This document shows, piece after piece, positions 399 through 50,771 of a stretch of 64,000 nucleotides of DNA (the stretch's first letter is position 1; every line of letters starts with the position of its first letter). Both the position numbers and the translations under genes were made by a program. A model generated the notes under the pieces. That model was not told the DNA's origin and did no database searches. It saw only the letters and a program-made list of their open reading frames with translations. Origin of the DNA: Nereocystis luetkeana (taxonomy: Eukaryota; Sar; Phaeophyceae; Laminariales; Laminariaceae); contig JARUPZ010000007.1 in the NCBI GenBank assembly GCA_031213475.1, forward strand, positions 6,319,586-6,383,585, read 5' to 3'.

Positions 399-3300
399 GT
401 GAGGACACAACAAGCAGAAGGGGAGGGAGGGGGGGGAGAAAGAAGGAGGCAGGGACAGAGATATTGACGGAAACAAGCGAGAAAAGAGAGAGGGAAGAGA
501 GGGGGGGGGGGGGGGGGGGGTTGTACTCGATAAGAGAGATGTACTCGATCTCATGCATGGCCGTAGTCGTATGACCATAGACCCTCGCATCCCTACAATG
601 CCGGGACGGAGCTTGTCGGGTTTTCACCGACCAGGCAGACATATGCTGAGAGGGGGAGTGGGGATACATTTGCGCCACTAGATACTGCTGTTCGAGCGAG
701 TGCACTTCCACTATAGCTCGCCCGTGGGGAAGTCGACGTGTTGATAATTGATCATGCGGCGGTGGTACTGTAAGGTTGCGGGTTTTGCGTGCCGGTGATC
801 TCGGTGATGATGGAATGGTCATGTTTCTGCCTTGCAGGCTCCGGACCCCTTTTGCCCTCTCGTGTTCCTCTCTCTCGCTTGGCCCTGTTTTTTCATTCCG
901 GCTGTCGTACGCTGGCGTTCCTTTTGTCGGCCTCGGTACAGGTTCTCGGAAGCAATGCGGCGGAGGCTGAGAAGCTGTTCGCGGGAGAGCCGGAAACGGC
1001 ACTGATCGCGTCCATCCTGTGGGCTTTCGAGGTACGCGCGTTGCGGAATGTACTGTTATGTATAGTCTTGGCGCTACATCTTTTGACACTTCTGTGAAAC
1101 GCCTTCCCTCTCCCGGTCTATATGTACTGCGTGCCAGGTAGGGATCAGAAAAGTCGCGCTGCTATTAAACTTGGTCAGTAGCTCTTGTCACTGGTGAAGA
1201 AGCAAATGATACTCCCGCACTATTATTAATAGTAACTCCCCATTAATGGTAGTTTTTCGCGGAAACATGTACCAGGGTAGAGAGTTTTCGGAGGGATTTT
1301 TTCTTTCAGCAATGCCAGGTCAAATATGGCACATTTTTTTTTTCTTTTCTTGGGGAAAGCAGGAGTGCTGGCGGTTTTGGAAGCTCGGCACCCCCCTTTC
1401 CCCTCCTCCCTCTATCCCTCCGTCCTGTGGATACAGAGCGACTTGCCTGGCGACATATCGTACATCGAAGTACAAATCATAGCCACATGTACACGGCCGC
1501 CAAAGCAGTCGTTTTTATTCGCACTTTTGAGCATGCGCTCCCGCTTCCAGCGCGGCCCGCGGCATTTTGTGTTTGGTTGAGCCGCGGCTCAAGATACGGC
1601 ATGGTTCCCCCCCCCCCCCCCCCCCGCACCCGCCACACGCCCGCGCGCATGTGTCTTGTCCGGGGTTTTAGGTCCCTTCGGAGGCGTTTAGGTTGGGCAG
1701 GACGCGCGTTTTCTTCCGCGCAGGGCAGATCTCCACCTTACAGAGGATCCTCAACGAGACACCGGCGGAGAAGGGGCCCTGGATCTTCGCGAGGCTTCAG
1801 GAGGCGCTCGCCAACAGGGAGAAGGCCAAGGCGGCGGCGGGGGAGGCGAAGGTGATGCTGTTTTTTTTTTGTGCTGTGCTGTGCTGTGCTGTGCTGTGCT
1901 GTGCTGTGCTGTGCTGTGCTGTGCTGTGCTGTGCTGTGCTGTGCTGTGCTGTGCTGTGCTGTGCTGTGCTGTGCTGTGCTGTGCTGTGCTGTGCTGTGAG
2001 AAGGCTGCTCTGGGCACCAAAAAAAGGATTCGGCTCGCCTTTTTTTGGTGTTTCGGAGCGCGGCATGAAGGCTCGACCCCTCTCCACCCCGCCGGCCCCC
2101 CCCCCCTTGCCGCCGCTCTGCCCTTCCTACATGTTGGACGGCGGTGGTCGGTCGTTAGGCTTGTTGGCTCGGGAGTGCGCGCGCGCTGCGTTTGTTTTCG
2201 TTAACTTTGACCCTTGGGTTGGAAGGTGATGCTCTATGCGGTGTGTGTGTTGGCGCAAGTGGCGTGGCGAGTATCGTCAATAAAACACGGGGCTTCGAAT
2301 CGTGACAGGCACTGACTGTCTTATCCTATGGGGAATTCCGGTTGACGGGAAAAGACGTGTGCCCTTGAACCGCAGGCGTGTGGATCGTCTCGAGACAATT
2401 ATTACTATGAATATGCTGGAATAGATCGTTTTTTTGTGTATATACTTCGGAGTATGATGGGTCCTGATCACCATTGATATGGACCCCCGCTATAGTGGTT
2501 CTTCCTCATGACTCTTTTGCCCCTCGGTACAGCCTGTCTTGGAATTTTGTGGGACCGTCTGGCAACGAACCTCTCCACCTCTCCGCGTTCACCGACTCAA
2601 CCGACCCACTAACCTGCCCACCCACTACTTTACTAGTAACGACGCAGAGAGTACAAGAGGAGAGACAGCTTACTGCTGCAGTCCAGTGTTTTGATTGATT
2701 TTGACGACAGCGTAGTCGCTGCTACTGACCGAGTCAGCCAGTGCCCCAAGCCTTATCCTACAGTACCAAGCGGCTTGATCGAACGAGCTATTATTACCAA
2801 CCTAGCATCCCCCGACGACAATCGCTTGGCCCTTTGCCATCGCGAGGATGCAGAAGGCGATGGTGGCGCCGACGCCAAAGAAGCAAAACCCCTCCGACGT
2901 TCTCGCGCCAGGCTCTCAACCAACCTACCGACAGCTTATACGTACAGTACTAGTAGTATGTTCCTGTACTAACCCACCAACCAACCTATCTAATAGAGTG
3001 CTATTACGGGGGACCATAAATTAACAGGACCAAATATTGTTAGTAAAAATGGTTAAACATATAGGTTTTTTATGTATACCATAGGTCCTATTAACTATGG
3101 TCCCCCGTAATAAGCCAATCAACAAACTAACCGGTCGAACGACCGTCCCCGAAACCAATCCCTCTACGTAGGCTGCCCTCGCGAGGGTGCAGAAGGCGAT
3201 GGCCGACGCCGAAGAGGCGACCTCCGACCTCCTCGAGCCAGACTCGGACGACGAGAGCGAGTCCCGCGGCCGCCGCCGCACGGCCGCCCCCTTCAGGGTC

Positions 3301-6300
3301 ACCGAGGAGCAGCTGCGGCCCATCGTGTCGGCGGCTAAGAGGGCTCGCGCGGCGGGAAGCACCACCTCGAAGGTGATACATTTAGTCAAATCATGAATCA
3401 ACCGACCAGTCAGCGCGCGGACGATCTGAATTACCCGAATGAGTAGGGGGCTGGCGATAAGCCGGCGGCTGCGGGATGAGTTCGATCTTTCTGGGCGCGA
3501 GACCGCGAATGGCACAGGGGGCAGGGGGCAGGGGAGGTTTACCGGGCGTTACGACGGAGGTTTGGCTGACGCGGTGGGGGCGGAGGAAGTAGGGAGGGGT
3601 GGAACGGGGGGGCAGCATGGTGATGGTGGCAGGAGGGGGGGGGGGGGGGAGGCGGGGGTGGTTTTGTCCGTCTCTTTCGGGTGATTTTGCCCATTTCAGC
3701 GTTGACAGCGTTACGCGTCCCGAGGTGCGTGTGTGCGACACGCAAGTGGGTTCGGGCGCGCCAATTCTTGCTCGTTAGATTCGGTATGCCCATGTACTCT
3801 GGTCAATAAAATACTTCGTTTTTGATGCGTTTTGGGGCGTGGCGGGATTGAGAGGTGATGGATAATAAGTCTGAACAGTGGTGGGTCCTCCCCCTCCCCC
3901 CCCCCCCCCCCCTCCTCCCCCCACGTGCGTTCCCGCCTCCTGGAATCCCCGTTTTTGGTACGATGTGTGCACTGCCGCAGGTCCACGACTTGCTGCAGGC
4001 GGTGGATGAAGACGAGATCGGGACACACGCCAAGGGAGCGAAGGATCGCGTCGTGGAGGCGTCGAATGTCGCGCTCGTCGACATCAAAGCTGCCTCGACC
4101 GAGTGAGATGACCCATCGACTCTGTTGTTGCCGTCTTTTTTGGCGATGCCCGTCGACACCTTGCGTGCGTACCGCAGTGTTGGGAGCACGAAGCTTTTTT
4201 TCAAGCTAAACGCGGTGCCGCCCCCCTCCCTCCTTCCCTCTCCCCTTCCCTCCCTCCCTTCCTCCCTCCCTCCTTCCCTCCCTCCCTCCTTCCCTCCCTC
4301 CTTCCCTCTCCCCTTCCCTCCCTCCCTTCCTCCCTCCCTCCTTCCCTCCCTCCTTCCCTCCCTCCTTCCCTGCCTCCTTCCCTCCCTCCCTTCTTCCCTC
4401 CCTCCTTCCCTCCCTCCTTCCCTCGCTCCTTCCCTCCCTCCTTCCCACCCACCCACGACGTTGTGCTTGGTCTCCGTCCCTTCAGAGCGTCAGAGCTTGA
4501 CGCCAACATCAAAACGATCAAGGGCGTTGACGAGGCGGCCGCGCTGCGAGAGCTGGAGGACGGTCTTCGTAAGCTCAAAGCGGCCTTCAAAGAGGTCAAG
4601 GGCTTGGCCCAGGGGGCCCAGGAGGCGGCCGATAAGTGTCAGGTGCGTGCCCTGCCTGTGCTTGCTGTTGTTTGGTGGTGGTTGTTGTTGTTGTTGTTGG
4701 TCGTGTTGTTGTTGTTGTCGTTGGTCGTGTTGGTGTTGCTGGTTTGCTGTTTGCTGTTGATTGCTGTTGTTTCGGTGTTTTTTGGTATTATCTCCTCTTT
4801 TTGTGTGTGTGTTGGTGTTGGTGTTGTTTTGTTGTGTGAATGGCTGTTGCTGTTTGCTGTTGCTGCTGGTCGATGTCGTGGTTGCTTCTGCTTGCTGGTG
4901 TTGCTTGCTGCCCGTTAGTTGTTGCTTGCTTGGTGCTGTTGGCTGTTGCTGCCTGACTTTTGTTGCTTGTTGCTGTACCGACAGTTTCTCGCTGTTGCTG
5001 CTTGACGCATCTTGGGTTACCGTTGCTTGAGAGCAAGCTTCCGAGCGCGCGAGAAACAGCCAGTGGCAACAGTCGTCTTTCGCTGCCTTGCTGTTATTCG
5101 GTTAACCAATCGATGTCGGCAGTAAGAGAGGTAGCCTGCCTTTTTTCCTCCGTTCGCTGCGCGGCGCGTTTTTTTTCCCCACGTCTACATCACCGGGTAT
5201 GATACAGCATTACTATCTTCAGTATGCATATCTCGTCCTCAGAATCCACATATTGTCCTTAGAATACGTCTGAGCGAGGATACTCCTCAGTATACACGCA
5301 CGAACTATGATCATCGATGTGAACTATTACGGGGGACCATTGTTAATAGGACCAAATATTGTTCGTAAAAATAGCGAAATATAGAGTTTTTTGTGTGCAT
5401 CGCAGGCCCTATTAACTGTGGTCCCCCGTAATACGATCACCATCAGAACACACGCCTGAACGTCTGAACAATTGATTGTAGGACACACCTAAACTACGAC
5501 TATTGCCCGAATACCTGAACTACGACTAGCCCTAGTAATACACGCCTGAATAAACTGCATCCATACGATCGGGAACTATGTGCGCACGCTTGCACCCTGT
5601 GCCACCCTATATGGACTGTCGATGTGTTATGAACATCGTAGGTGGAGAAGACCGAGGAGATGACGGCTGCAGCCACGTCAAAGGCTTCCGACGTGGAGAG
5701 CCAGGCACGGGCTGTCTCCAACGGGGCCAAAAATACGGCGCAGGCATCGCAGCGACAGCAGGAGGCCTTCAAGAAGGCCTCCGCCGCGGTTGTGCCGGCG
5801 CGTGCTGCGGCGGAGAAGGCTCAGGCTTCATTCAGGTGAGCAGCCGCTGGTTGTAGTGGTGGTGGTGGTGGTGGTGTAGGTGGTGGTGTAGTTGTGTCTG
5901 TTGTTGGTTGCTGGTAGTGGTGGTGGTGGTGGCGGCGGCGGTGGCGGTTTTTGTTGAGGTTTTTGGTGGTGCTGTTGCTGTTGCTGTTGTCGTAAGGTGT
6001 GATCATCAGTAGGCGTTGCGGTGGGTTTGGTGACTCTTGTTGCTGTTGTTGTTGTTGTTGTTGTTGTTGCCGTTGCTGTGATTGTTCTTCATTTTTGCTC
6101 TTGCTGTTGTCGCTGTTGATGTTGATGTTGTGGTGGCTCGAGGTCATTTTAGTGCTGGTGTAAGTTGACTAGCTGCTGCCTTTCTTCTGCTTTTGCTTGC
6201 TGTTGTTTTGTACCCTACCTATTCGCAGTTAGTTTGCGTTTTTCGTCGGGCGAGCAACCATTTGATTCCCCTTGGTTGGTGACTCTGCCGCTGCTGGCGG

Positions 6301-8205: not shown

Positions 8206-11200
8206 CCAAGTGGTGGTAGAACCAGGCACTGCGTTCGGGCTGTTGATGAGTACGGGCAGCTATTCGAGCCCCCGAATAAGCCGTGCTGCCAAGTTGCCAA
8301 AATTAGCCTGTCGAGAAAATCAAGCCGCGCGCACGCACGCACACCACAGCCCTGTTTCCTCCGCTGCACCCTGAGAGCGACCGCTTCGCACGATGATTTC
8401 CGTGTGCACCAGCTCGAGCTGGGTTGACGACTTTCTGACGTGGCCAAAATAGTCCCGATCGAAGCCACAACAGCAGACACGAGTAGTCGAGGAGTGAGCA
8501 CGCGGATTTAAACCCCCATCGATACAAAACGGAAGCCTGTGCGGAGCTGTTCATTTGTACCACTCACAACAATCGAGCACGCGATACCGAATGTGTAGCT
8601 CCTACGTGCGGACGCGCGACGATTCGTGTGTCACCCCCCCCCCCCCCCCCCCCCGCCCTTTCCTCCGCCTCTTGGCTGTGAAGCACCGCCTCCTTGTGAC
8701 GCAACCCCCCCCCCACCCTCTCCCCTACGCCTCTTGGCTGTGAAACACCGCCTCCCTGTGGGGTAAAACGACGGGACTGCCCGGCCAGCCCGCCGCCCAA
8801 GTCGCGTGAGGAGAAGGAGGCCGGCTTGTCCAACGTCTCCACGCGGATCGGTCCCAAATCGGCCGCGGGGCGCAATCACTTCGAGAAGGTTTTCGCGGAA
8901 GCGTTGGAGGGGGGCCATGTGGAGGTGCGTGCGACCTGTCTGTTGCTCTGTTCGTCCGTGCTATTGTAGAGGGGGGGGGGGGGGTGGGGAGGGGCTGACT
9001 TTGGTGGGAGATATGCATAAGCGAGAGTCTGTCTTGTCTTGTCTATCTGTATGTCTTGTCTGTCTACCGGTATGCATGTGTGTATCTATGCCTGTCTGTC
9101 TGTCTGTCTGTCCGTGGTAGCGCATGATAGTTGCGATTGACGGCGCCCTCGCGGTCCGATTTCCAATAAACTTCAAACCTGGCACATGTATACGAGGTAG
9201 ACGTAGGCATCTGTGAAGAGGCCATTTCTTAGCCGCCACCGGCTCTAGCTGTGCCTGTTCCTAGCCCTCCGCCCAGCAGGTAGGTTCCTTGTTCTCCGCG
9301 CACGAAAATAGAGTACACCTTTCGCCAGAAACTTGCGCAGCAGTGTGTATCTGTGTCTGCCGTCAACTTGTGTGCGTTAGCCCGTGGGTGGGTCGGTCGG
9401 TCGGTCGATCGCTTCGGCCATCTCCAAAGGTGGCCCTATTTTTTGGCCCCTTGTAATTAGAAAGTCACATTCGCTCGTAGTGAACGTAAGACACCCTCTT
9501 ATCCATCGCCGACATTGCCCCCCCCCCCCCCCCCCCCCTTCCCCATCCACCCCATACCCTCAGGGCTACCTGATGAAGCAGAAGAGGTTCACGGCGCGAT
9601 GGAAGTCGTACTACTTCCGCTTGGAAGACGGCTACCTCACGCACTACGAGAACAAATCGCTCGTCGGCACGCGCAAGAGCAAGGTGAGAAAGCCGTTAAA
9701 AACTCTTATCAACGCGCATCTGGTAGGTATCATAGTATATTATAGCCATACGACTATAAAACCCGTACGTACCTGTTAGTATTACGGGGGGCCATAGTTA
9801 ACAGGACCGAATATTGTTAGTAAAAATGGTTAAACATACCTGGTATAGGTTTTTATGTGCCCCATAGGTCCTGTTAACTATGGTCCCCCGTAATAGTACG
9901 CGCGATTGAAGCATCACACACCGCTCCCAAGCAGAAGTTTCGATGAAAGAACCCTCGGTCTCATATCCGTTTTTTTTTTTTTTTTCATGTATGCCATTCT
10001 GGCCGTAAGTGCAATAAGATTATTCTTAGGGTGTTGACCCTTTTGGAACCGAGATATATATCTAGTACTTAGTGTAGCGGCCCAAGATGAGATAAGTGCG
10101 GTCTTGTATAGTGCGGTCGGTTTGACGCGTCTAGGAAGAGCGTGCGGCATTACACGTATACTCATCGTCGTTGTCATGCACGTGTCTTACAGATCCTTGC
10201 GTTGCACTACTGATGTAAGGGCACACACCCCACCCCACCCCACCCCGGAAGCCCGGGCTGCTCGGTGTGACCAATGCTCTGCTCGTAAACGGCATTTCCC
10301 CCCCCCCCCCCCCCGCATTTTTTTCCTTTCAAGCCTAAACGGCGTTTTTGCCGGTATGCCGTAAGGACCGTTTAGTGGAGGGTCGGCTTTGGGAGCGTTT
10401 CCTGGGATGGTCATCGCACATGTACCAATGGGAGACGCATCAAACGTAACTTGCCGTACTCGGGATAGTACCTCAGGAGCCTCAGGAGCCGAGAGGCGTC
10501 TTGTTGACGTGAACCGTCCGAGCTCACTCGACTCTTCTTTTATTCTACACGTAGCCGTGGAGAGCTCCCTCCTTGCCTGCATGCAAGGGAGAAAACGTGC
10601 AGGCCCTTCACCTGGGGCCTCCAAGCAAACCGCGCAAACAAGCAACTCTACCCACCAACCAATTTACCAATCAATCAATCAATCAACCAATCAATCAATC
10701 AACCAATCAATCAATCAACCAATCAACCAATCAGACAGACAGCAGTAGCATAGTTTTGTGTGTTTACTATCCGTTCTGATGGTGTACAGCGGACGATGTA
10801 TCATAGCTCTGAGAGGATAAAAACGCAACCGTTGAGGTTTGTATGCTATATTATACCTGGTATATTATATGGTCGTGTCGGATTGAGTATATACGAAGTA
10901 TGCCGGATGAATTAGTTGCATTCTTCGGGACTAAACTTTTCTTGAGGAGGTCGCTTTTTACCGTCGCGAGCACCTCCTTCGCCGATGGCCTTTGGTATAC
11001 TTCACTACTGTTTTAGTACTACATTACGTACGTATGACGAAGTGTGCACACCTTGGACAGGTCATGGACAGATAGATCATGATCTAAATCTTCTTCAGGG
11101 CAGATGCTAATAGATCATGATATCTACAGTAGCTCACGTTGCCCAGTGGGAGCCGGGTATGTAGCTTGCATGGTACACTGGACACGTTTCATGGGTTGGA

Positions 11201-14200: not shown

Positions 14201-17200
14201 GTGATATGGTGGTACGTGTTATTCTATCACACGTGTTGCATTACGTGTGCTATCTTATCACACGTGTGTTATTGGTATGTTGTTATTTTATCACACGTGT
14301 TATATGGTGGTATGTGTTATTTTATCACACGTGTTACATGGTACTGGGTATGGTATTTTATGACACGTGTGTTCCATGGCACCTGGTACCAGGTACCAGT
14401 GTGTCATCACACGCGTATATGGTACCTGGTACCAGGTACCATGGTATGTGTTATCTTATGGTGTTCCATGAAAAAAGGCCGAAATCAGCGTGGAAACCCC
14501 GCCGGAAGAGAATTTCGATGAAAAAATTGCCGAAAACGTATTGATGATTGCAGCGTCTCGCCCACATAAAAAGCAAGCAGCCACATGACGCGTGTGCGTA
14601 ACACTGACTGGGTACGAGTAGGGGATAGTCTATCCGAAGCGCAAGGTTAGCAGCTATTTCCAGTACGGCACGTATTATTTACCTGGTACCGTACATGGTA
14701 CATATATACCAGCAGGACACGAAAGTCCTCGCGCTTCATGAGCACTGACTGCTTTGATTTCCCGTCGTTGCTTGGCATACAGCAGAAGTACGTAGTGACG
14801 TGGGGCATGGTGATCAGAACCCACCATGGGGGGAAAAAAAACAGGGGTTCTCCCGTACTCATAACCCATACGTATTTGGTTCGACTACTATTACGGGGGA
14901 CCTATAGTAAATAGGACCTACGGTAGACACTAAAACCTACATATTTACGTATTTTTACCAACAGCAGTTGGTCCTATTTACTACCTGGTATGACCCTCCG
15001 TAGCTAGTGCGGTATGTATGCCCCCCCTCCCCCTTGCTGTAGGTATGTTCCCCCTGTAATGCTATGAATAGTAACATTTGAAGTTTTCCAGAGACCCCTC
15101 CGATGTGAGATCGAGAGTCTTTCTTTCGTCGGGGACAAAAAAAAAATAAGAACCTTTTGCGAGCTTCGTGTGTGTAATCATTCGATCGGCAGCGTGTGTT
15201 GTTTGTTTATCGTGTCATGTTTCCCATGTTTTTGTTTTTGTTTTTGTTTTTGCCGTGACAGGACGAAGGGGCGCTTCTTCTACGGCATGCCAGAATCCGG
15301 CGCATCTCAGTGGATCTACACCCACCCCGAGGAGGGTGCGCCGCGCACGGGAGAGGGCATCTTCCCCATGGAGGTCATCGAGGTCACTCAGGTATTGATG
15401 GACAAAACACAACTTATGAAACCTTTTTTTGCCACCCCCCCGAAGAAAAAAACACGCACACACAACTATGAAACCCTTTTTTCGCCACCAAAAACAACAA
15501 TCACGCTACAGCAGTACTGCTCTAATATCCAATTCGTGATGTAACCCGTCTAACCACTTGAACTATTGCCACACTATTGTAGTTCCAAGTATTGACAGTG
15601 ATACAAGCCACTAAAACTAGTGTCACACCTCTGTAATTCCAAGTATTAATAGGGTTGTAAGCCACTAAAACTACTGTAGTGTCACACCATCATGTAATTC
15701 GAAGTGATATAACTCGTTTAACTACCAAAACTCGTGCCGCACCGGTGTGATTCCAAGTGGATTGTCTCCAAAAACGTGGTTAGAGGTGTATAGAGGTTCT
15801 TACAGGTACAACTTCTAACCCATCTAGGACCCAGATTGATGCCTCGTACGATACTTCGTTTCGGAGTGGTGAGCAATCGCATCGATGAAAGAAGACTACA
15901 TAAGGCGTCGTAACGTATTATTTTTCGAATGTACAGCAGGTATCATAGGTACGAAAATGTCCGAACCCAGCTGCACCAAGGAAGGTACGGTTCTTACGTC
16001 TGATGGTCTATAAAGGTTCTCAGGGTGACCCAAAATATATGCCACTAATACTGCACTCATCTATATGTAAGGCTACTCGTACTTCGAAGTCCCAGGTAGT
16101 ATGTATGTGCCAAGTTTAGCGTTGTACGTAAAAGTCGCGAGAAGTCTGTGTTGAGCTGGTGTCCCGCGGCGGTACCAGGAATGTTGCTATTGGTAGTAAT
16201 AGCGTACGAAGCAGCCACAGCGGGAGGGATACACGAAAATATCAATCGGTAATAAGCCGGTGTTGTTTTTGTGTTTGTTGTGGTGGCGTTTTTGTGTTTG
16301 TTGTCGACCGTGGCCAACATTGCTGTTGTTTTCGTAGCGTAGTTAGTGCTGTATATGCACATATACATGCCAGAACGAGCAGATTGCGGTATGTATGTAC
16401 AGCTACTACCGCTGCTGCTGCTGCTGCTGTAGTTGGATCTGAGGTGATGCTCTGTGTTGTGTGTTCTTTTATTGGGTCGTAACTACTGTAGTATAGTAAG
16501 TACACTATTACGGGGGACCATAGTTAATAGGACCTATGGTGTACATAAAAACCTATATATACAACCATTTTTACTAACAATATTTGGTCCTATTAACTAT
16601 GGTCCGCCGTAGGAACATGGACCCTTTTCGGCCCATACGGAAATATTAAATTCCTGGCTTTTTAGAGTAAAAAATACTCACTATTTATAGTGCGAGGTTG
16701 CAGCAAATAACGATAAAAACGATCGACGATTTTTGTATGAACCAAAAACAATTACGTCAGCGAAATCAATCTACCCGCAACGAAAAATACAGCACAGCAG
16801 CGGTTGGGGGGTCTAGCTCTCCGAAGTTGTACGTATGTGCTGCTTTTTTTTTCGGAAGCGGGCGACCTCAGCTCTCCAGCGGCGGACAGCCAGACCCCGG
16901 CACGAAGGCGAAATGTGTATGCGACCGCCGGGGCTTTCCTGGGTGTGTTGCAAACTGCGGGTGAAGGCAGGAAAACCACAGAAATAAGCTTGGTGGCGGC
17001 TGTTTGAGCTGTCAGCTGACGGATTGGCTGGCGATACCCGTCGTCCGTGTTTGTCGTATGTCGTGTGTCGTATGCTGTCAGCTGGTCGGGCCAGTCGTCG
17101 TCGCGCACGTCGCCCGCTGTCATCTTCTGGCGCTAAAAGCTACCCAGCTCGGGCTATAGTCGTTTTTCGTGCGTACGTCGCCTCCTGTCAGCTTCTGGCG

Positions 17201-20200
17201 CCAAAAGCTAGCCTACAATAGTCGCACCTAAAAGCTGTTACGGGCGACCATCGTAAATAGGACCAAGCATTGTTTGTAAAAATGGGGAAATATCTACCTG
17301 GTAGGCTTTTTTGTGTACCGTAGGTTCTATTTACTATGGTCCCCTGTAGTAGTCGTGCCTAAAGCCCAGCCCAGTCTTACGGACCGCCGGGTACAAACGC
17401 TTACCAGGTCCTTTGTTTCCATTATATACCAGGTTTACTTTTTATATGATACCTGGTATTCAATATATAGCCGTTCGACATAAAGGTCGTAAGGATGCAG
17501 GGTGCTAGGTCGTGGTTATCGGTGTGCTTATTTATCCCGAGCGGGAGAGACGACTGGGCGGTTTGTCTGATATGCACGATCAGTTGCTGATAGCTTGTCT
17601 TGACTCCCCGCCGCTGGCTGCCCGCTTCTCTCTTAACCTTGTCCGCCCGCCCACTGTGTTTTTTTCCTCTCTTTTCCTGTTTCTTTGCCCTTTGTCGTCT
17701 GAACTCAATGAACAACACGGACCGTCACGTCACATGGCGTCGTACGACACGACACGTCACGTCACGTCACGTCACATGACATGACATGACATGACAACAT
17801 GACGTGAGCAGTTGCTGCCGATGGGAGACATGCTTTACCTCAGAATCGCGGACGACCGAGGATGGACGTGCGGCAGGCACTCCAAGGATGGAGAGCCGTG
17901 TCTCATGGAGGTGCCGGGCGATATCACCGAGGAGAAGTGAGACCTACCGCCTTCTTGCACCTGGTGTATCATATACCTGGTATATACTACTGTAGACACA
18001 TGCGTTGCTCGTCCGATAAACTTTGCACACAAACGGATCATCGATGACCGATCCGCACTTGACCCTTGTATTTTTGTGACCCCCACATGGAGCATCAAGC
18101 TCAGCCACAGCGCATGGGAAAATACCGGCAAGAAATTACCGGAGCGGTTTACTTCGGAGTTAGTGTGGTAACCATAGCGCATGCATGCCTTAACCCTCTT
18201 AGGACCGCAGCCCCGTTTTGGGGACAAACTGCTTGGAATTCGAGTGGGTTGTCCCCAAAACGGGACTGCGGTTCAAACAGGGTTATTATAACCCCTTCCG
18301 GGGGACTACCGGTAGAAAGGATGGCAGCAGTTTTACCCGGAGTTAGTGTGGAGCCACTTTTTCAATAATATGCGAAATGCAGACTTTTTGGGCAGGTATC
18401 CCGGTTTACGGCTGTATGACGAGACAGGTCGGGCGTGTGGTTCGTGGCGCACTGCTGCTGTAGCTATATGCGGCACTTACCTGGTATGTATTACGAGGGC
18501 CCTTACTAGTTGGAAGCCAGTATTGACCCGAAAAACCTTGTATCCCCTTTTGTCTGCGCACTGCTGTGTTTACACGCCTTGTTCGGTCATGATTAAAAAT
18601 ACCTAAAGAAGAAGGTAAAAAAGCGCGTTCCTCCGTGATGGTAGTCAATGTTGGATGGAGCTGCGGGAGCGACGGCAGCAACTAGCACCCTGTTCGCTTG
18701 CCTCGGGACGAGGCCGAATGAAGAACGCAATGGAAACCCCGCTTTTTTCATTTTTACGGGGGACCATAGTTAATAGGACCTATGGTATACGTAAAAACCT
18801 ATATATTTAGCCATTTTTACTAACAATATTTGGTCCTAGTAACTATGGTCCCCCGTAATAGTCGGAGGTGTTTCGAGAGCTGCCCGCTTGGAAATACTAA
18901 AACACTTTTGAACTGCTGTGGTACCAATGACATCTTCGGGGAAACATTACTTGGAATTCGATTTGAGTCGTTTTTTGCAGTACTATTAATAGACTAGATA
19001 GCACTGTAGTAAAAAAAACTGCACCCACTTTTTAGGCAAAATTTATTTGGAATATTTTCGAGTTGGCTGTGCTGCCGTACTGTTCTGTTACAGATTGGAT
19101 TGGAATACACTGGGTTTTTTGTGCTTGGATTGACGTGGGTTGCATCGGATTGGGTTGGGTTGGGTTGGGTTCATCACTGATGCTCTCCGGGTCAACCCGC
19201 GTGTCTTCACGCTTGGCAGCCTTGTAAGCAAACGCCCTGGTTTCGGGTGTGCCTCTACTACTCTAGTTTCTCCCTTTCTCCCCCTCCAGTGTATGCATAA
19301 GCCATGCCCTGCCATGCCTTGCTTTTCATCGCGCAGAGGGGTGGTCAATCAGCACTTCCGCTGCTCATCGAATTGGCTGTGGCTCTAGCAGATTAGAGCT
19401 CCACAGCCCAGATGGGGCATACCCAGATTGAGTCAGAAGGCCTCAGGTCCGAGTGGCGCAGCCGTAGTGCCATCAACTGTTGCGCAGCAAACGACTACGT
19501 GGAGACAGGCGGCACGCCCCCGGAAGCGACTTGTGTTTTGTCGTTTGTAGGGTGCCTCGCTAGCCTAAATTAAAATGGGCGTGGGATAATTGCGTTCCCT
19601 CCCGCGTGTGTACGCAGTAGTCGCGAGTGAGGATGAGGACTGGCTGTTGCATAGTCTTCCCGTGACAACAGGCGAGCTGCATTGCTTTTAACTTTTAACG
19701 AAGCGACAACTCTGCTATCCCACAGCGTAATACCAGGGGGGGGGGGGGGGGGTACGTATATATCTCATGCATGGCCGTAGTCGTATGACCATAGAGACCC
19801 TCGCATCCCTACAATGCCGGAACGGAGCATGTCGGGTTTTCACCGACCAGGCAGACATTACTTGCACCAAGCGCGAAGCGCCGAGGGGGGCATGACCGTA
19901 AGGGGGGGGGGGGGGGGGTGACCTTACACATATATAGCGGAGGATTTTTTATTCTTAATACCTGGTACATTTTTTTCGGGTAGGAGAACAGCCAGCCGAA
20001 TTATTTCCCCTGTGCTGACCTGTTCGTCCCCCTTTCGCCGCGTGATGCCCTGCAACTTTCTTTTTCGTGGTCGTGTTTGAAACAGGCGCATGTACACCCT
20101 GCCCAAGAGCCTTGACCCGACTACCCACGTCCTCTGCGGTCCTTCTGTGCAATCCGAGGTTACGGTGAGTGGGTTTTGCCCCGACTTGGAACTGAACCTC

Positions 20201-23200
20201 TGTTTGCGAGAGGTTATAACCCTCCTGGGACTTTTGACTTGACACACACAGGCAGGAGGGGAAATAAAAAAAAAAAAAAATACCGTTGAATGCAGCGGTC
20301 ACCGCGTGATTGGGTCGTGATGTGTATATGCTTAAGGGTGCCCGAGTTACCAGGTACAATGCAGCTAGTCATGGAGCACAGGCACAGGCGCATCATGATC
20401 CTAGTCTCACTGCGGGTTGGTTACGCTGCCCGTGGACTGGTCGATATCCGCAGAGCTTCCTACAGCATCACTTGTGTCGGGGTCGCTATCGCGGGGTTAA
20501 AAGTGTGTGTGTGTTTTTTTGCGTTCTGCTTGATTCTACCCCAAGTGTATGATAAACCAGGACACCAAGCTGGTTGAACGATGCGCCTGTAATACGAGAT
20601 TTGCTTGTAGGGATTTGGGGGCCAACATGTGCCAGGTATCTGGTATGTATGCATCGCACGCACGTAATTTCGCATATAGGTGAGTTGTAGATTCAGTCAA
20701 TCTTTTTTTGTCGGTAGTGTCTTCGTTGCTAGATTATTTCCCTGGTAAGATCCATCAGGGTGGCGGCCATACCTCTCCGGTTTTGCGGTCGAGGTTAGGG
20801 TCGGGGGGTTTGGGGGCGTTTTTTCAATCCAAGGCTTCTTCGACCATGCTACTGCTGCGTTCCCTGAAGTTTGTCCTATGCGTGTCTATACACAGCTTAT
20901 GTTAGACCAGGTTTATTTTTTCAATTCATCAAGCCTCGCATAGATGGGCGGCTTGATGTTGCGGTCAGTGCACAAGCCGCTCGGCCACTGGTGTGCAACA
21001 CAAAGGACTGGCACTGGCATGAATATAGACCGAGCTCCTTGCAGCAACGTGTCTTTTTCGACAACTGCAGTAGAGCGCAGCAACGTACCAACATGTAAAC
21101 TTTCGCTGAACGGTTTCTGGTATATTCTGGTATATATACTCATGAGAGGGAAAAGTTGTTGGAAAAGCCGAAAGCAAAATGACGTATTTGTGTACAGCAT
21201 CAGCCGCACCTCTTCAGAAGCAATGCCAGTGCAAGACGACACGCGACACAATTAAAGCAAGAGCAAGTCTGGGGCTCTTGGCCAAGCGATGATACTTTTA
21301 GTGACCCGAGAGACCTGGCACGATAGGGATAGCACTTTGGTTGGCCAAAATATTTTTTGACTGCTCCCTTAGTACATACATACACTGCTGGTATGTCTTT
21401 GTCTTTTTCTTTTTTGTCTTTTTTAACGCTATTTTTCACTATATTTTTGTAGTTGTGTATACCTACAGTAAAGCTTCGTTTTGTTTGTCGGGCTGCACTT
21501 TCAGGTTTGTGAAGGAGTTGTTGTTGTTGTTGTTCTCACATTAACTCACAATACAATGCAGTCAGTGGTCGCTGGACAGGCTCCAATAACTCTGGAGTGG
21601 AAGAATACCTCGGGAAAAAAATCAAATAAATAAGCAAATAATAATACACATGACAACTGAAGCACATTTACACCTCAGACGAAAAAAAAAAAGTGAGGTC
21701 CGCGCACGTAAGTATCAGGCACATGCTGTAACATATCGCCAGAGAAACGGACAAGACCGCATAATACTCACAAGTTCACAAGAAAAAAACAGGATGAAAA
21801 AACAACTTGACGTCGAAAAATCGAAATCGACCTAAATAAATCGAAATAAATAAGTCGAAAAGGGGAGATGGAGCAAAACGTCAAAAGCAAGAAGGAAAGC
21901 ACGAAAGGAAACACACAAGAGAACACGCAGATTATCGCAGATTGCAGGCTCGCAAGCTAGGCGAGGGGTGTAGAACAGAGAGAAGAACCGAAAACAAACA
22001 TACATTGCTACTCCGCTACCAAGAACACCAGGGAAGCAAAAAATAAACTACTATTAATATTAATAGACGAAACACGAGTTGTACCTGGCTGGGCCGGGAT
22101 ACAGAACCCCTCGAAAGAGCAGCGTCAGAAAATGCTACTACGGGGGGGCATATCAAATAGGACCCACGGTGCGCACAAAAAACCATATGTTTGCCTATTG
22201 TTACTGACAATATTTGGTCCTATTTACTATGGTGCGCCGTGTAACCTCTATCATAACATGCGTCTTTGAGAACTACGCCAAACCTGTGCTATGGGTTGGT
22301 ACGTAATAGGTACGACTGTGTGGCTTGACCGGATTTCCCGGCGACCAGGTAGTTATTACCTGATAGTTGTCTGTTGGAACCCGCCAAGTAACTGACTGTA
22401 GCTGACTGTTAGGTAGTGCGGCTGGCGCAATTTGGTTTCGTTTTACATTTGGGAAAACGTTTTGACATCAGAAACGCCAACTCCATCAGGCACCGTCGAT
22501 GGCGACGGGGGTTTTCATGCGCAAGGAGTTGAAGGAGAACTCTCAGCTCTGCCTCTTGTCCCTCTTGTCTCTCCCTCTCTGAGCGAGTGGTCTCACGGGC
22601 AAAAACGCCCCACGTATATAGCAAATAAGCCTTCCATCGATATGGAAACCCAAACAGTCGGATAGACGGAACCGCTGCAACTATTAACTATAACTACAAA
22701 CCTAGCCAACTTATACCTGGCTGGCGACTTGAGGTTATCCAACAGCTCTACAGTAGTAAATAACGTAAGCGTCGGGCTAATGAGACATATAACTACCCGT
22801 CTCTGCACATTATAGCATACCGGTCGATGCGATGCACGGTGCCCACGCTCCGCGCTCGCTGCCTGTGCCACGTATGAAGCACTCCACCTCCACTCCGCTT
22901 CCGATGTAGAATCAGAATTCACGAAATACCTCATCCAGAATTCACGAATTCCTGGCCCAGCGAGCGACCGCTGTCCAGGTGCAAGCTACGGGCCTTGTCT
23001 GTTCGCGTGTTCTACCAGTCTGCCAGGACCGTTCCGTGCGGTATCTATCCTCTTGGTACTCCCCCAAGCGCGATCGACCTAGCAGTTCCTGCTGCTGCTG
23101 GCTAAGTGACTACCGGTACGTACTACTGATACGTACCCAGCCAGAGAATATGAACCATAACGCCTACTTCTCTCCACAACAACAAACTGCAGATTATGAT

Positions 23201-28900: not shown

Positions 28901-30214
28901 GCATTCCCTCACATACATTCGTATACTGCTGTCGTCGTTGTTAAGCGGATTCCGAACAGGACAGAATGGCGTATACAAAAATAATGCGGTTTCGGGTGGA
29001 GGGTGGGGATTTGCGGACGGTATTTGTCCGTATTTGACAAGACATGAACAAGCAAATTCGGGTGTGTTGGCGCAAAGTAACCGCTAGTCATATTATACGG
29101 GCATTATATGGACGTGCACCCTCATTTTGGCGACATTCTACTTGAAAATAGTGAGGGGCGACAAACTACTCGGAGTTACGAGCGTTGAAGCGATAAACTA
29201 CTCGGAATTAGTGTCGGGGCGGCCCTCTACTGCTGCGAAAGAGTGTACCAGGTAGGGGGCGGGAAACTACCGCTACTTGGAAATTGGAATTAGTGTGAGA
29301 AAAAATGGCGGCGGCGGCTTTCCATTCAGCCGACGTCATTCACGTACGTATATATCGTACACCTGGAAGCAGATTGCCGCTCAATATGCGACACGAGCTT
29401 GACTCGGCAACAAGGCGATAGGAGCACTTGAAACTGGAAACCCATTCATTTGCAACGTACGAGTAGCTGACGTGATGCTTTTCTGAAAAAAAAAAAAAAA
29501 AAAAAAGCTTCACAGAAAGTTTTTATTCTGCTTGTGTGCTCTGTCCGATCTTTCGGCGGCGAGGCAGTTGGCTGCATTCAGTCATTAAGTCTTTCAGTGA
29601 AATCTCGAGACCCATTAGTACCCTTTGTAGTACCTAGCTGCCCACGATACGGAAAAGACCAAAACAGAAACCAGCCTGCTCCGCCCGAACCACGAACCAC
29701 AATCATCATGGGTTCCCCCAATCCCCCCCCTTCCTGCCCCCCCTCATCCTCTCTTGGGGGGCTCCCCTCCCCCCCTCCCTCCGGCAACACCGAGTGACGG
29801 TGCGAAACTTGGCTCAAGGAGTTCCTGCACTAGTAGCGACAAGTGTGAGGGGGGGGGGGGGGGGGGAGGGCACCAAAGCTGCTTACGCACGACAAATCAA
29901 AGAAAGCCCCGTGGACGTGGATTAACCTCATACAGAGGCAAATAGGGCTCAGGTAATATATATAGTACATAAGTCTACACTACCGATATTACGTGCTACA
30001 TACCCCATACCTCCCCCCCTCCCCCCCCCGCGCCTCTCGTAACAAAGACTCCCACAAGCTCCGTCAGCCATAGGCCCCACGCACGCCGTAAGCAACCCTA
30101 AGTTAGGGCAAAAGACCGGTACGACGGTATATAATTGTGGGAGCGGCTATGCACTGAAGCTTGTGTGGAACACACCCTTTTCAAAATAAGAAATCTAGCC
30201 TGGGCCTTTACTTT

Positions 30215-30385: not shown

Positions 30386-31089
30386 ACTGCGATGCAAGCG
30401 AAGCCCTTTTAACGTGCAGAATTACTGTTACTGGTTATATTATACTTTTAATTCTAAAGTCGTACCGGTAGCACGCCCTAAAAAGCCACCGCCGCCGCCG
30501 CCACCGCCGCTGCTGCTGCCTACAGATAAAACAAACCTCTCTAGGTTACTTTTCACGCGGTCGATTCACCTACTATTTAGGCTGTCGACATCTGTCTGTC
30601 TATCGCTCGACATCTGTCTACTCGTAGGCTCTATAGCAGTGCTCTATAGCAGTACTCCTCCAGCAGTGCAGCCAGTCGGTGCCCAACCAACACAACAGTT
30701 CGTTACTCACGCTCAGGAGAGGAAAAACAAAAACAAAAAAAACGCTGTGCTGGTCGTGGTGGCGGAGGACTGGATAAGAAACAATTAACAGAGGCAAACC
30801 CTGTACACTTTTTATACCTCCCGACAAATGAAGAAATCCTACCGCACACAACGATACGACCTTCGAGACGTCGCCCGCCCGCCCGCCCGCCCGCGCGATG
30901 AAAAAAAAGCGCACGACACTCAAGTTGACCTACCTCGCGGCAAGCTACGGCTGCACAGGTACATATATACTACCAGGTACCTGGTATGTAGATAATACGA
31001 ACTAAAGCACGGGTACATGCATGTCTTATATTATGTATACGCAGTTGTGCTTCGGATCAACTCCTGCAACTCTCGCGAGACCAACTTAA

Positions 31090-33863: not shown

Positions 33864-34695
33864 TGAGCAAACCAGGAATTTTGTTGGTCAAGACATATCG
33901 AAGCATGCCTCGGATCAGGTCCATGGAACATCCAAGCCTGTATCGGATCAGGCCCATGCGCGTAGGCACACAGGATTATTATAGGAGGCTCGTCCGTCTG
34001 CGCTTCCAGAAGAGCACGAGACAGGGTTACTACGTATAATACAAATACCGCCACTACTACAGCTCTGTAGCTGTGAATTCAACGCATACCTTTCAACGCA
34101 TACCTGGTACCTGAAAGCAGGTGTCAAGCGCCGGACGAATGCAAATGCAGCAGTACATGGAAACACTACAGTCACTAAGCGAAACACAAGTGGTGGGGGG
34201 AGGTAATTGAACGACCAATTGCGCGACAACATGCAGATGCAGCAGCAGCAGCAGCAGTAGTAAACACCTATCTACCAATACGTTTATACCAGAATACCGA
34301 TACCGATACCTCCGTGCATTCCGCTTCATAGTACCAGTGTGTACACCATACAATAATCAAGTGATGTGATATCATGCACAGAGTCACGAGTGACACATGC
34401 TGACATGAATGCACCCGAATACGTGCGTATAGAGGCTACAACAGGCAGTCGTGTTGTCTTTCCTGTCTGGTAGCCTGGTACTAGCTACCTGGTACACAGG
34501 AGTACATACAACAGGAATCCACAGCACTGAAATACTAGACCGCTCTCGTCGGAAACATAAGGATCCTTTTGTCTTCATTTTAATATGTAGAAGCTCCTTG
34601 TACTTCCGCTCAGTTTGCTGGTCGGAAATATAAGGACCCCTTTGTCTTCATATTAATGTGTAAAAGTTCCTTATATTTCGGCCTAGAGTGGTGCT

Positions 34696-34835: not shown

Positions 34836-36395
34836 CCAAGAGCAAGGGATACTTGTACTCCGAAGTAAGCAATCACCTGGTAGAAAATTAGGTGATTGAA
34901 CGTCGCGCTGGCGCATCTTTTTCGTCAGGATTCCTTCCGCTCAGTGCTCGCTCAGTGCGGCACCATAACGAAAACGGCTACTCGTACTCGTATGATATGT
35001 GCGGCTGCTGGCTTGCCGCACATGCTTTTTGGAGCCCCGCATTACGTATGAGTAGGCGAAAAAAGTGTGTGTGCGTGTGTGTGTGTGTGTGGTTTCGCCG
35101 AGGGCGAAAGAACGAAGAACAATGCAGCAGTACAGCAGGAGTAGTGTCGTAGGGGGCTGTTTTCGCCTCAGACACATTTTTTTTTTTTGTCTGTTCTGTC
35201 ATTTTTTCTTTCTTTTTTCGACATCACTCGTTGCGGATTTTCTCCATGGCTGGCTTTCTTTCTTTTTTACATAGATAACTAAATCAAGCTCGACGTTTTC
35301 CTCTGTCCGAGCATGAATCAAGCCTTCAAAAGCTTGCACACCTGTATATACATACACACGTTCAATGATTTGACTATTTGATGAGGGAAAACGCTTACAT
35401 GAGTAACACCCCGTGATACGTAACAATGCCGCGTGAATACACAGAAACCCTCTTTCCCCAACATTCAGTATCCCGGAGGGCACAGGGCATGGAGACGCAC
35501 ATTTTGAGTGAATTTACGAGAACACGTCCGTCCAAATTTTAGCCTCTGGCGGCCCTACGGGCCGTCCGTCCTGCGTGGGGCTGCAGCCTCCGGCTGGTGG
35601 TTCGGGGGCTGCTCCACGGCCTCCGGCCCGTCGCACCACGCCACAGACGCCCGAGTATAACTCAGGTAGTGAGTGAGTACCCACAGAATATGGTCGACGG
35701 CGGGTGTAGATTGTACCTGTGGTATGGCTAGATGGTATATGGGCTATTGAGAGCTTATTTCTGTCATATCTTAGCCATCTAATCATATATGCTGTAACCC
35801 ATACGAACGGGGTGTGGGTACGTGGGATATGAATTCATACGGGCAGTATGCACACCAAGTTGTCCTATTGTTACTGCTGAACACATACCTGGTACCTGGT
35901 ATATATTACGTTCGTAGTGGTTGGTGGCAGGCAATCAATTGCCAGGTGAGGCACGCATGCCAGTGTGATGTGGCCATGTAGGGCATGGCATGAGGTACGG
36001 ACAGTTTTTGGCAACATGATGTTTTCATGAATTTGTACGTACATGGATATATAAAACCGAATGCAGTACATACCAGGTACCAGGTAGTCATCAAGGCCAA
36101 AATCTCGATCTTGTCGCACATCAAGTACCATGTTCCTACCGCCCACGTAGATGTAGCACAAGCACGCAAAAAAACAGGAAACAACCACGACTACGGACAT
36201 TCATAACAATTGCTACATACCAGGTATTGAGTACCAGGTACATGACTACTGCCTACACACCTGGTACACCCCCCCCCGCCCCGTTGGGATGAATTTGCAA
36301 GTTCGTTTTCTTCAAACCAAGGGGGGTCAGTACACACACCTAAACACCTACCGGTACACACAAGCAAAATCGTGGTTTTGGAGATATTCGACGTG

Positions 36396-39235: not shown

Positions 39236-39788
39236 AGGCCACTTCCTTCTGATGCAGTCGGATTTGCAGTCAGTTGGAAATGGTGCTACCAGCACGTTCG
39301 CACGAGCTTTTACCCCGAAAATGTGCGAAACTGCTGTTTCTCGCCCCAGAATGACTTACCTGGTAGGACTTTTCTCCAAGACCTATCTAGAGCAGTTCCC
39401 CGCTTCTCCGGGAGCCCAGTTGCAGGAAATCACCTTCGGTATTTTTCCGATCCAACTGGGTCAAATACGATTACGATCAGGGATCGGATCGGAAAAAAAG
39501 GATTTTGCCATCCAATCGGGGGTTGTAATCGTATTTGACCCAGTTGGATCGGAAAAGTGCCGGAGGTGATTTCCTGCAACTGGGCACCTGGAGAAACAGG
39601 TTTTTCCGATTCGATCGCTGATCGTAATCGTATTTGACCCAGTTGGATCGGAAAAGTACCGAAGGTGATTTCCTGCAACTGGGCGCATGGAGAAGCGGGA
39701 AACAGCTCTAGATAGGTCTTTGGAGAAAAGTCCAAGTCATTCTGAGGCGAGAAGCAGTAGTTTCGCACATTTTCGGAAGAAGCCTGCA
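39236..39788. mobile_element. Foldback (hairpin) element, truncated copy
   Basis: Left arm starts AGGCCACTTCCTTCTGATGC and runs about 240 bp to GATCAGGGATCGGATCGGAA. The return arm is present almost 1.5 times (GACCCAGTTGGATCGGAAAA occurs at 39537 and 39637) but stops before its outer end. Confidence -1.
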
Positions 39789-40539: not shown

Positions 40540-43290
40540 TTTACTGAGCAGGTCTAATAAATACGAGTGTGTACAGGTACGGGTATGTACATACAGCAAG
40601 CGGTACGGACGAAACTGTTTGGCTGTTTGAGCATTGGGTATTATTTACCGAAAGGCTTGCGTGTTGACTGGACTAACTGCTGCCTGTACCTGCCTTGTAT
40701 AGAGGGAAAATATACAGACCGGTGAGGAAAAGTCAAACGCGAAAGGCTCAAATACGAGAATACACCAGGCAGCAGCAGTACTCCATCCATGCACGAAGAT
40801 ACGATCATGATACTTCCAAGTATATGCGGAATGTATGCGACGTGGAAGTGTATTTTTACACTATTATATTAATATTAATATTCATACCTGGTACTATTTA
40901 TTATTAATAGTATATTCATGAAAATAAAAAAATGACAGCTGCGAGATCGAGGATGTGGTCGAAGCTCCTATTTGCAAGTTGTGTGTGATACTTCGATCGC
41001 GCGTACTACTGCTGTACGTTAATCTTTGCAAGCTGTGTGTGATACTTCCATCGCGCGTACCACGGGCTTGAATTGATATGGCCTCATGCCGGGTATACAA
41101 ATCCATATATGAGGAAGACGAAATCTGAAACCGTACTATAATTATATAACTATGATTATCAGCGCGGGGGGTTGCCTGAATATATATGTCGCCGACTACG
41201 TGCGTCAATTGTACAGCAGTACTGGCTGTAGTTTCAAGCTGGCTACGTGGGTACGTACGATGCTACGCTGCTGTTGTACTGCTGTAGTGTACGAGTAGTT
41301 GCCTAGTAGTTAGTAGTTGCGTGCAGCAATCTGCGGAGTTTCAAAGTTCTGCGGCTGCGTACCTTTCTAGCTAGCGCGCGGAGTCGCTTGATTGGGCGTG
41401 TGTTACTGAAAATAATGAGTCGGTACATATGTAGTTTGCTTACTCCGCCACCCAAGGTATGACTATAAACAAATAACATGATGCAACAAGTACGAGTACC
41501 AGGTAACTGTCAAGTCTACTGTACGTAAGGCATGCATGCGTGTAAATGTTTCTATAGCGATTATACAGCGGCGCTGCTGCTCTGAAAATATCTCACAGAT
41601 GCGCGCGCTCCGAGCATTCACGCAGTACACAGGAGAAAAGCAAAGTATCTCGAGGAACAAACACTGGAGACACTTCGAGCAACGGCAGTTTTTTGGGATC
41701 ATGTGCTGCGGAATACTGCGAGTACCACTCACTCCACTCCCTGTACGAGTACTTCCAAGTATTCGGGGGTTCGATACCCTGGAATAGTGCCAATACTCGA
41801 AGCACTTAGGGATCCTGTACTGCTGATTGATACTTTTGAGTACTCGCATTTTTTTCGGCTGTTGGTACTGCTTGCACTTCCAATACTCGCAGTATTTCAG
41901 GATTTTGTACTGCGAGGTGCAGTATAGTTATTAATATTGATATTAATAGTACCAGCACCATTCCAGGGTTAGTACTGGCAGTATTGCAGGGTTTCATACC
42001 GTGATGTACTGCGGGTGCAAGGAACACTCGAAGTATTTTACTCGCTGGCTGCAGTACATCCGGGTTCGCTATACTCTGGATACTCTGAGCAATCGGTTGC
42101 TACCAGCATACCGGTATAATTTATAAGAAAACTACAGTAGGGATAAGAAAGGCCAGCTGGTATTTACAGGAATATAAGAAATTCGGGAGGCGGCACAGCG
42201 TTGCAAATATGATAACCAGCCTGTCAGCATTTACTACTACTTTAGTCCTGTTTTGCACTGCCGTATATATGTACAGCAGTATATGGAGATAGCGATGGAG
42301 ATAGATACTCGGCAGGGTTTCAGTGTAGTAGGCAGGCGTTCGCTGGGCTTTGTTACACGCATCAGTGTGACATAATACCAGTTAACCTGGTATATATCAT
42401 GTCATATGAATATGTACACAGAGGGCAGGTACCCCGCTAACGCTCACCGCATCTGATAATCCTGTTATAATACTCGTACTACTACTTGCTGCTGCTATAT
42501 GACGTGACACTTGGAAGTACATACATATTTTTCAGATCAGAACCGCAAGTGCGAGGAGCATTTTGTTTTTCAGGATGACGGAGAAAAAGGAAATCGACTG
42601 GAAGGGAATGGCAACGAGTGCACGCGCAAAGGAGCGGGTGGATTGGGCCAAGGCGATGAGGCGGCCATGAAGAGCGGCAGGAAGACGGTGCACGGAGACC
42701 CATGATCTGCGCGCACACCATCATCACGAGAGAAGCGGTCATAGTTTGTTTTTTGGTATTGTTTTTCACTAGGCAGAATAGTATCTACCGGTACTTGTTA
42801 TTAACGTCGTCACTGCTGGTCTTTGTAGTTTAACGAGTTGTATACCCTTCATGGGGAATAACCTACGCAATTATCAGGGGCGAGGTACCATAACTGCTGT
42901 GCTGCACCTTTTTGTGTTAGACAATCCAGGAAGAGATAGCGATCGTTGATATTCGTGTGGTAGTAAGGTTCGATTGCTCCTTTTTTCACTGCATATATAT
43001 CCGCGAGTCTTCACTCTGACAGCACTCCAGATAGCAGGCAGGTGTGTTCTTCTTTCGTTTTCACGACTACCGTGCGTTTCGTACGGTGCAGGCAGCACTT
43101 CAGACAGCATCCGCTGTGGTCTGCAGCCACGAGTTGGTTAGTGGTGGGAACGGGGGTACTCTTCTATGTTATAGTTGAGAGGATATACCCGTGGCCATGT
43201 TAGTTCAGTTTGCACATTGGTTTTAGATCGTGTGCGCTTTCTTCGTCTCGTGTATTTTGAGGCAGCCGAATTTTCGTTTTTTTTCGTTTT
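40540..43290. other. Non-coding region
   Basis: Rich in TACAGCAGTA, TACCTGGTA and ATTAATATTAAT motifs plus the 41.7-kb tandem repeat. A small GC-rich patch at 42536-42705 follows TTTTTCAG and has a short open frame (MTEKKEIDWKGMATSARAKE); it could be an isolated exon but has no partner I can see. Confidence -1.
41690..42070 (+). repeat. Degenerate repeat of TACTGCGAGTACT-like units
   Basis: Loose repetition of GTACTGC, AGTACTC and CCAAGTATT/CCAATACTC with TTTCATACC-like ends. No reading frame of interest. Confidence -1.
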
Positions 43291-44312: not shown

Positions 44313-44385
44313 AACGAGTTGGGGAACGTTCTTGAAGGGTCCCCCAACCCGGCCCAAAGGTAAGGCCTATTTATGGGGTAGTTAA

Positions 44386-44784: not shown

Positions 44785-44882
44785 CGACCCTTCGGTAGGT
44801 GCCTCCACCATTCTTATTCCACACTACTGGTATAATATGAAAACAAGACCTGGCCCAAGAATACATGCGTATCATCCGGGGC
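44785..44882 (+). repeat. Direct repeat, second copy
   Basis: Matches 44225-44312 but has TACTGGTA (44825-44832) where the first copy has TA. A MITE-2 copy lies between the two. Confidence -1.
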
Positions 44883-48960: not shown

Positions 48961-48971
48961 AGCAGGGTTGA

Positions 48972-49060: not shown

Positions 49061-49519
49061 TTATTGCATGCAGCAAGTAGAGTAGACAATGCAAAGATAG
49101 AACACACGTATTCTATGCTATTAATATTAATAATACTACAGCTATAGTGCTGCTGTACGAATATTGATAGGTCGAAAACACTCTCACGTCGGGAAAATTC
49201 GAGCGGAACACGATCGATCGTTCATCACATGACATCATGTACCATATTCTGTAACAAAAACTACCAGGTACAAACTACAGCAGTATAACTACGATATTGA
49301 TGGTACAAACTACAGTATAACTACGATATTGATGCGTATTATACGTACGAGGTACAGCAGTATTTTAATATTAATAGTAGTACTTGTAACCTACCGGTTT
49401 ACCATATATACCAGGTTCGTATTTCATGAAGAATTGAAATTTGGTCAACCCTTCAAAACAATGTGCAGGACACAAACAGCAGCACGCCCATTTTTCGGTG
49501 ACACCTTGAAATAACAGAC

Positions 49520-50742: not shown

Positions 50743-50754
<12 letters not shown>

Positions 50755-50771
<17 letters not shown>

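Follow-up and report, generated by a model that had tools for sequence, protein, structure and literature searches.

A TA-flanked palindrome dispersed through a kelp genome is probably the excision footprint of a Tc1/mariner-type transposon

Transposons of the Tc1/mariner type leave footprints that are described, in the sections of the literature drawn on here, as 1 to 4 end bases beside TA (PMC1925063; PMC2642840; PMC7913693), and Stowaway, mariner-like elements and Sleeping Beauty provide known examples at TA (PMC1925063; PMC2642840; PMC8151067). This report concerns TACCWGGTA (W = A or T; TACCAGGTA and TACCTGGTA in its two orientations), a motif repeated across a 64-kb stretch of DNA from the brown alga Nereocystis luetkeana (G000:C7:6319586-6383585, hereafter the window) and across the assembly of 465,085,209 bases in 1,987 contigs to which the window belongs. 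The motif is probably a scar left by excision of a Tc1/mariner-type cut-and-paste transposon with ends beginning CCA. The original prediction, made from the letters of the window alone, had read it as a Tc1/mariner footprint; insertion at TA, target preference, imprecise joins and a second footprint word with its own element now support that reading, with a putative source.

Sleeping Beauty resembles the kelp scar in its TA target, the duplication of that target and the short end remnant left between two TAs, and the available portion of a review attributes its CAG footprint to end joining (PMC8151067). It differs in that its footprint has three bases, whereas the main product here has five (CCWGG), and in that the kelp genome holds 182,395 copies with no element in hand. 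The two strands of the Sleeping Beauty footprint give C-A/T-G. Mos1, a mariner element, has ends that begin CCAGG; here, the sole mariner model tried (PF01359) matched nothing, and its control was silent. The Stowaway miniature inverted-repeat transposable elements (MITEs) of grasses are alike in leaving 1 to 4 end bp beside a TA duplication, as deduced from natural empty sites, although the relevant section follows one intron site across species (with a second gene cited), whereas the kelp scar is a dominant genome-wide word (PMC1925063). Ectocarpus, also a brown alga, has 17 Mariner-Tc1 families, most copies of which are non-autonomous, and the available main text of that repeat survey contains no words starting footprint, excision or MITE (PMC12477816). 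Among the titles and abstract openings listed by searches of the open-licence literature, none described a genome-wide footprint word in an alga or a dominant scar word with a join series. Short TA footprints are already known; a dominant genome-wide scar word accompanied by a join series may be new.

The window contains 41 exact copies of TACCWGGTA, against a mean of 0.48 and a maximum of 3 in 100 dinucleotide shuffles, none of which reaches 41. About fifty copies had been counted originally where less than one was expected; the number was too high, and the excess over chance stands. Genome-wide, there are 182,395 copies, whereas the reversed pattern yields 1,744. Words between two TAs were also ranked against an order-2 expectation, with simple repeats masked, in a 315,559-bp sample made up of the window, pieces of the start of contig C1 and 100 kb each from C1 and C2. 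CCWGG is the top word by excess (161 copies, 48x), followed by TTAA (95, 51x) and CAGCAG (55, 51x), with CGAG (76, 6.3x) and CCGG (24, 4.2x) ranked lower. One scar falls in about every 2.5 kb. The sample also holds 146 TACCWGG half motifs without a following TA, which have no common flank.

Evidence for insertion includes repeat copies that differ by the presence of the motif. The window holds eight copies of MITE-1, a ~110-bp repeat flanked by a TA duplication and having the ends TTACGGGGGACC, and three of them contain TACCWGGTA. The internal site is empty in the copies at 3002..3112 (+, with the TA duplication and ends TTACGGGGGACC), 5325..5433 (+), 16506..16611 (-), 18753..18860 (-, ends approximate) and 22136..22245 (-, ends approximate). 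The filled copies lie at 9780..9895 (+), 14889..15003 (-, ends approximate) and 17237..17351 (+, ends approximate). At 9837..9845, both the MITE-1 alignment and the repeat comparison show a clean 7-bp insertion that turns TA into TACCTGGTA relative to six empty sister copies, the seventh sister (17295) having its own insertion. The same change is read by eye near the copy end at 14982..14990, and at 17295..17303 it occurs at the next TA, before GG, with one nearby substitution. Because the genome-wide MITE-1 copies listed mostly read AAATATATAGG or AAACATATAGG at the site matching 17295, no extra bases are needed there. These three cases are as originally predicted, and the coordinates quoted in the prediction proved correct on re-reading.

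Three further sites had been offered as comparisons. In the MITE-2 repeat, TACCTGGTA is indeed present in the loop at 57255..57263, where it had been read as replacing two loop bases; the sister at 48748-48845 reads ACTTATAATT, retaining TA at this site, and the other sisters lack TA there. On the basis of that one sister copy, 57255 is likely a TA insertion. At 44825..44832 one direct-repeat copy does carry the variant TACTGGTA, together with other changes that make the comparison less clean. At 39357..39365, which reads TACCTGGTA, the insert sits at TT rather than TA, as had been noticed; it is an 8-bp insertion, ACCTGGTA, at TT|GG relative to three sister arms.

When the repeats of the sample were all compared with one another, 412 carriers of insertions of 4 to 16 bp emerged. 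CCWGG accounts for 12 of the 36 seven-base insertions, 3 of them in the window, and the compared copy shows TA in 10 of these 12 (by eye). Two internal anchors match 3,031 + 3,029 MITE-1 copies in the whole genome. Among the 100 copies that head the listing, all of them on contig C1, 12 show 4 or more additional bases (by eye). Nine of these insertions are TACCWGGTA (one double), with one TACCTGGCA, one TACCGGAA and one TATA expansion, so that 10 of the 12 are the motif or a one-base variant. Between shorter anchors the word fills 300 + 335 = 635 MITE-1 sites (control 0), which gives only a rough rate against 6,060 copies, as the left anchors of the two patterns differ. In a listing of 100 filled sites, 59 have T and 41 have A at the centre (by eye); both bases occur at the same oriented MITE-1 site, and neighbouring TAs are also used. 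Copies of TACCWGGTA are insertions at TA that leave a TA on either side, and the empty allele is TA; the exceptions to the TA-flanked pattern are 39357, 44825 and two seven-base cases.

The target preference around CCWGG sites is transposase-like and extends to both sides of TA. Outward from 163 sites in the sample, omitting flanks that adjoin another copy, A is depleted at +1 (0.3x) and G at +3 (0.5x), T is enriched at +6 (1.8x), and at +7 A is enriched (1.8x) and C depleted (0.3x). Tc1-like elements favour AT palindromes around TA according to the passages available (PMC7913693; PMC5481204), one of which reports ATATATAT as a target for ZB (PMC7913693), with which the preference seen here was compared. 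Most copies are single, and 12 adjoining pairs with a common TA occur among the 163 sites; random targeting predicts about 1.5 pairs and weighting by the target matrix 8.4, the latter being partly circular.

Joins of related form suggest how the word may arise. Counting TACC-N(k)-GGTA in the sample gives 24 joins at k=0 (5.7 expected), 167 at k=1 (6.4), 24 at k=2 (6.2), 14 at k=3 (6.2), 4 at k=4 and 3 at k=5. Scored with a target matrix trained on CCWGG sites themselves, the mean is 0.22 for CCGG, 1.38 for CCATGG and -0.10 for CCAG, against -1.00 for all TAs (z = 4.2, n=23; 3.8, n=5; and 3.2, n=25), whereas CC-C/G-GG has no clear target signature (z 0.8, n=6). In the sample CCATGG occurs 6 times where 0.3 is expected and CCTAGG 0 times where 0.2 is expected; genome-wide, TACCATGGTA has 3,002 copies (control, read backwards, 623) and TACCTAGGTA 175 (control 182). 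CCAG is found 26 times against 11.8 expected and CCTG 16 times against 15.5. The main word cannot separate a CCA end from a CCT end, and it is the full-join counts that lead to a flank tail reading TA-CCA. Judging from the joins, the source element should begin CCA, perhaps CCAG.

A proposed mechanism begins with a transposon of the Tc1/mariner type that would once have been highly active in this brown alga. The scar suggests that an element with ends 5'-CCA(G)... entered TA and duplicated it, and that its transposase then excised it so that ~3 to 4 bases per end stayed as single-strand flank tails. End joining with overlap of the tails would give TACC-A/T-GGTA as the main product, while full fill-in would give TACCATGGTA and trimming TACCGGTA; these products are present in the genome, and the enzymology is conjectural. 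The two TAs of a scar lie at a favoured spacing, and new insertions may return to them, which would give runs and is partly borne out by the adjoining pairs.

A second footprint word follows the same logic. MITE-1 makes a TA target duplication: the insert of the copy at C1:14790 827-932 is missing from 9 aligned paralogous stretches, 8 of which have TA (by eye), and TA precedes 27 of 39 MITE-1 end matches. Its ends read TTACGG, and overlap of TTA with its complement would give TTAA, leaving TATTAATA. This word occurs 37 times in the window and 95 times in the sample, which holds 18 MITE-1 copies. Read outward, its flanks (G.54, T.61, A.57) resemble those of MITE-1 ends (G.59, T.63, A.52; 27 flanks), and a separate matrix trained on these 27 flanks scores it at 0.57 +- 0.13 (n=87, simple-repeat neighbours dropped), against -1.29 for all TAs. 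The same matrix gives -1.56 for TA-TATA-TA, -0.74 for TA-ATAT-TA, -1.52 for TTAA without a preceding TA, -1.86 for CCWGG and 0.47 for CATTAATG (a set of two). On the strength of the common target preference, TATTAATA reads as MITE-1's own footprint, and in contrast to TACCWGGTA it has a matching element. It represents 6 of 66 six-base insertions in the sample; the compared copy shows TA in 3 of the 6 (by eye), two of these three being in copies of one repeat. At 22052..22065, TATTAATATTAATA is two adjoining TATTAATA, read as MITE-1 footprints.

Of the other words in the original prediction, TTAA has therefore found a place as the putative MITE-1 footprint, and CAG/CTG and CAGCAG are only over-represented between TAs; with the MITE-1 matrix, single CAG scores -0.27 and CAGCAG -0.76, so that neither stands cleanly apart from MITE-1 targets. 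The CAGCAG word between TAs, TACAGCAGTA/TACTGCTGTA, is not palindromic; it occurs 12 times in the window, at 15507, 49276, 51442 and elsewhere, and 55 times in the sample (51x). TACGAGTA/TACTCGTA lies at 34979-34992, 41491, 51217 and other positions (76 in 315 kb, 6.3x), and two insertions of it were found between repeat copies. The search of viral contigs matched the double word in 5 stretches, about chance level by our estimate, and a MITE-1 piece in none.

Several observations weigh against an excision footprint. The 315-kb sample of the 465 Mb yielded no element with TA-CCA ends despite its 161 footprints, and whole-genome searches with PF13358 (30 candidates; the control gave a signal in 3 of 14 genomes) and PF01359 (mariner; 3 candidates; control silent) each gave 0 matches. 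The insertion at 39357 is not a clean TA case, and in 2 of the 12 CCWGG seven-base insertions the compared copy lacks TA. The k=3 joins (CC-N3-GG), five of which belong to a single repeated sequence type, CCCCGGG, have no clear target signature (z 1.1, n=14). Nor is the signature unique, as TATATA (z 11.0), CATACA (12.7) and CG (4.8) also show it, and all TA-N5-TA words pooled score above the mean TA (z 8.1, n=1137, CCWGG included); the matrix was moreover trained on the CCWGG sites. CCTGA/TCAGG is in excess (10 against 2.6), which a CCA end does not predict, and the dominant five-base word requires overlap on a mismatched centre base, a step argued by analogy. These negatives carry limits of their own: a rare element would escape a sample of 315 kb in 465 Mb, and the PF13358 and PF01359 searches, as six-frame scans with a loose initial pass, are no proof of absence. 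The source element may be rare, decayed or gone, or the scars may arise otherwise; with no TA-CCA element detected, we infer the source from the scars themselves.

Candidates for that source were sought among several classes of repeat. TA-flanked inverted repeats in the window and the 315 kb proved to be MITE-1, MITE-2-like repeats, a single candidate for MITE-4, simple repeats and local duplications; no CCA-ended repeat with several copies was among them. A TA-anchored 10-mer boundary scan ranked MITE-1 first, and the two TACC words that it listed were a local tandem repeat and a GC palindrome. Clusters of TACCA/TACCT starts were repeats and minor footprints. Five TA-CCA inverted pairs included a degenerate simple repeat and pairs within two inverted copies of a long interspersed nuclear element (LINE); the others were not followed.

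A process without a transposon, in which an enzyme or repair pathway adds CCWGG and a copy of TA directly at TA, is unlikely. It would fit 182,395 scars without any source element having come to light in 315 kb, as well as the uniformity of the inserted word (161 CCWGG against 24 CCGG). However, imprecise joining of two identical ends is suggested by the CCGG, CCATGG and CCAGGG joins and by the fact that CCATGG exceeds CCTAGG, TATTAATA follows the same logic with a known element, and the target preference is transposase-like. There is also a slim chance that CCWGG scars are written at fresh TAs by a TA-targeting transposase or repair system, making ~180,000 marks without insertion or excision of an element.

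MITE-4, a TA-flanked 105-bp inverted repeat in the sample with ends CCGAGG/CCTAGG, has TA flanks and CC ends in its favour, but it is highly improbable as the origin of the scars, as its CCT end predicts the full join TACCTAGGTA, which is at control level (175 against 182), and it is represented by one clean copy and two partial relatives only. An exact palindromic word so far above chance might instead be a dispersed binding motif or otherwise selected; this is scarcely credible, being already contradicted by the empty TA in sister repeat copies and by copies lying within MITE-1 in either orientation and also at neighbouring TAs. Tandem-repeat slippage in 7-base units, which the runs of two or three units might suggest, deserves almost no weight, since slippage would keep orientation whereas 6 of the 12 adjoining pairs are opposite (centres AA in 4, TT in 2 and mixed in 6), most copies are single, and single insertions occur at empty TA.

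If TACCWGGTA is an excision footprint, each scar is most simply one inherited insertion followed by one inherited excision, and this one genome would hold ~180,000 excision records of one element, plus those of a second family. At 7 bp each, the 182,395 words make up about 0.27% of the assembly. Such scars would provide natural end-joining outcomes in numbers beyond ordinary excision assays and could serve as a dating tool, and copy counts of DNA transposons could miss most of their activity. The predicted end of the missing element is TA-CCA(G).

The remaining motif sites in the window, given without strand and taken from the motif count unless discussed above, are distributed as follows. Single TACCTGGTA copies lie at 10854..10862, 14680..14688, 17450..17458, 17974..17982, 18478..18486, 19959..19967, 34101..34109, 34486..34494, 40885..40893 and 51227..51235. 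Single TACCAGGTA copies lie at 14387..14395, 20348..20356, 24067..24075, 25675..25683, 29246..29254, 36218..36226, 36232..36240, 49262..49270, 51099..51107, 51507..51515, 52088..52096, 52242..52250, 57774..57782 and 57861..57869, and another at 41497..41505 has a TA in common with TACGAGTA (41491). Two adjoining copies have opposite orientation at 14423..14438 (CCTGG then CCAGG) and 30971..30986 and the same orientation at 35886..35901 and 36071..36086; three in the same orientation adjoin at 47554..47576. TACCATGGTA, the predicted full 3+3 join, lies at 14437..14446, with a TA in common with the preceding copy.

Other repeats are also present. MITE-2 copies occur at 18189-18285, 24990-25086, 31086-31184, 44382-44489 (with an internal 10-base duplication), 48748-48845, 48968-49063 and 57204-57307, and several read TTAA-CCC...GGG-TTAA, as in a piggyBac-type MITE. 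A third short repeat lies at 25168-25260, 47586-47712, 48842-48957 and 58294-58388, with the core CCGTCGACATCCAGC common to most copies. A 329-bp inverted pair, 96% identical, at 48201-48524 (+) and 50753-51080 (-) carries GGGTTCGAGCCC, a box like that of a transfer RNA (tRNA), towards one end, and has a poly(A) tail; by eye it looks like a tRNA-derived short interspersed nuclear element, and ARAGORN found no tRNA in the window. LINE-type reverse-transcriptase pieces (PF00078) occupy two frames at 45072-46171, the second below the curated cut-off. The window is eukaryotic: the frame at 32604-33863 (-), which has no interruption, codes for a MORN-repeat protein (PF02493) whose best database match is a Laminaria digitata protein (80% identity over 76% of the query). 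At 39228-40217, inverted and direct copies of a 370-bp unit overlap one another and might fold into large hairpins, and 1870-1998 is a perfect TGTGC array of about 26 units.
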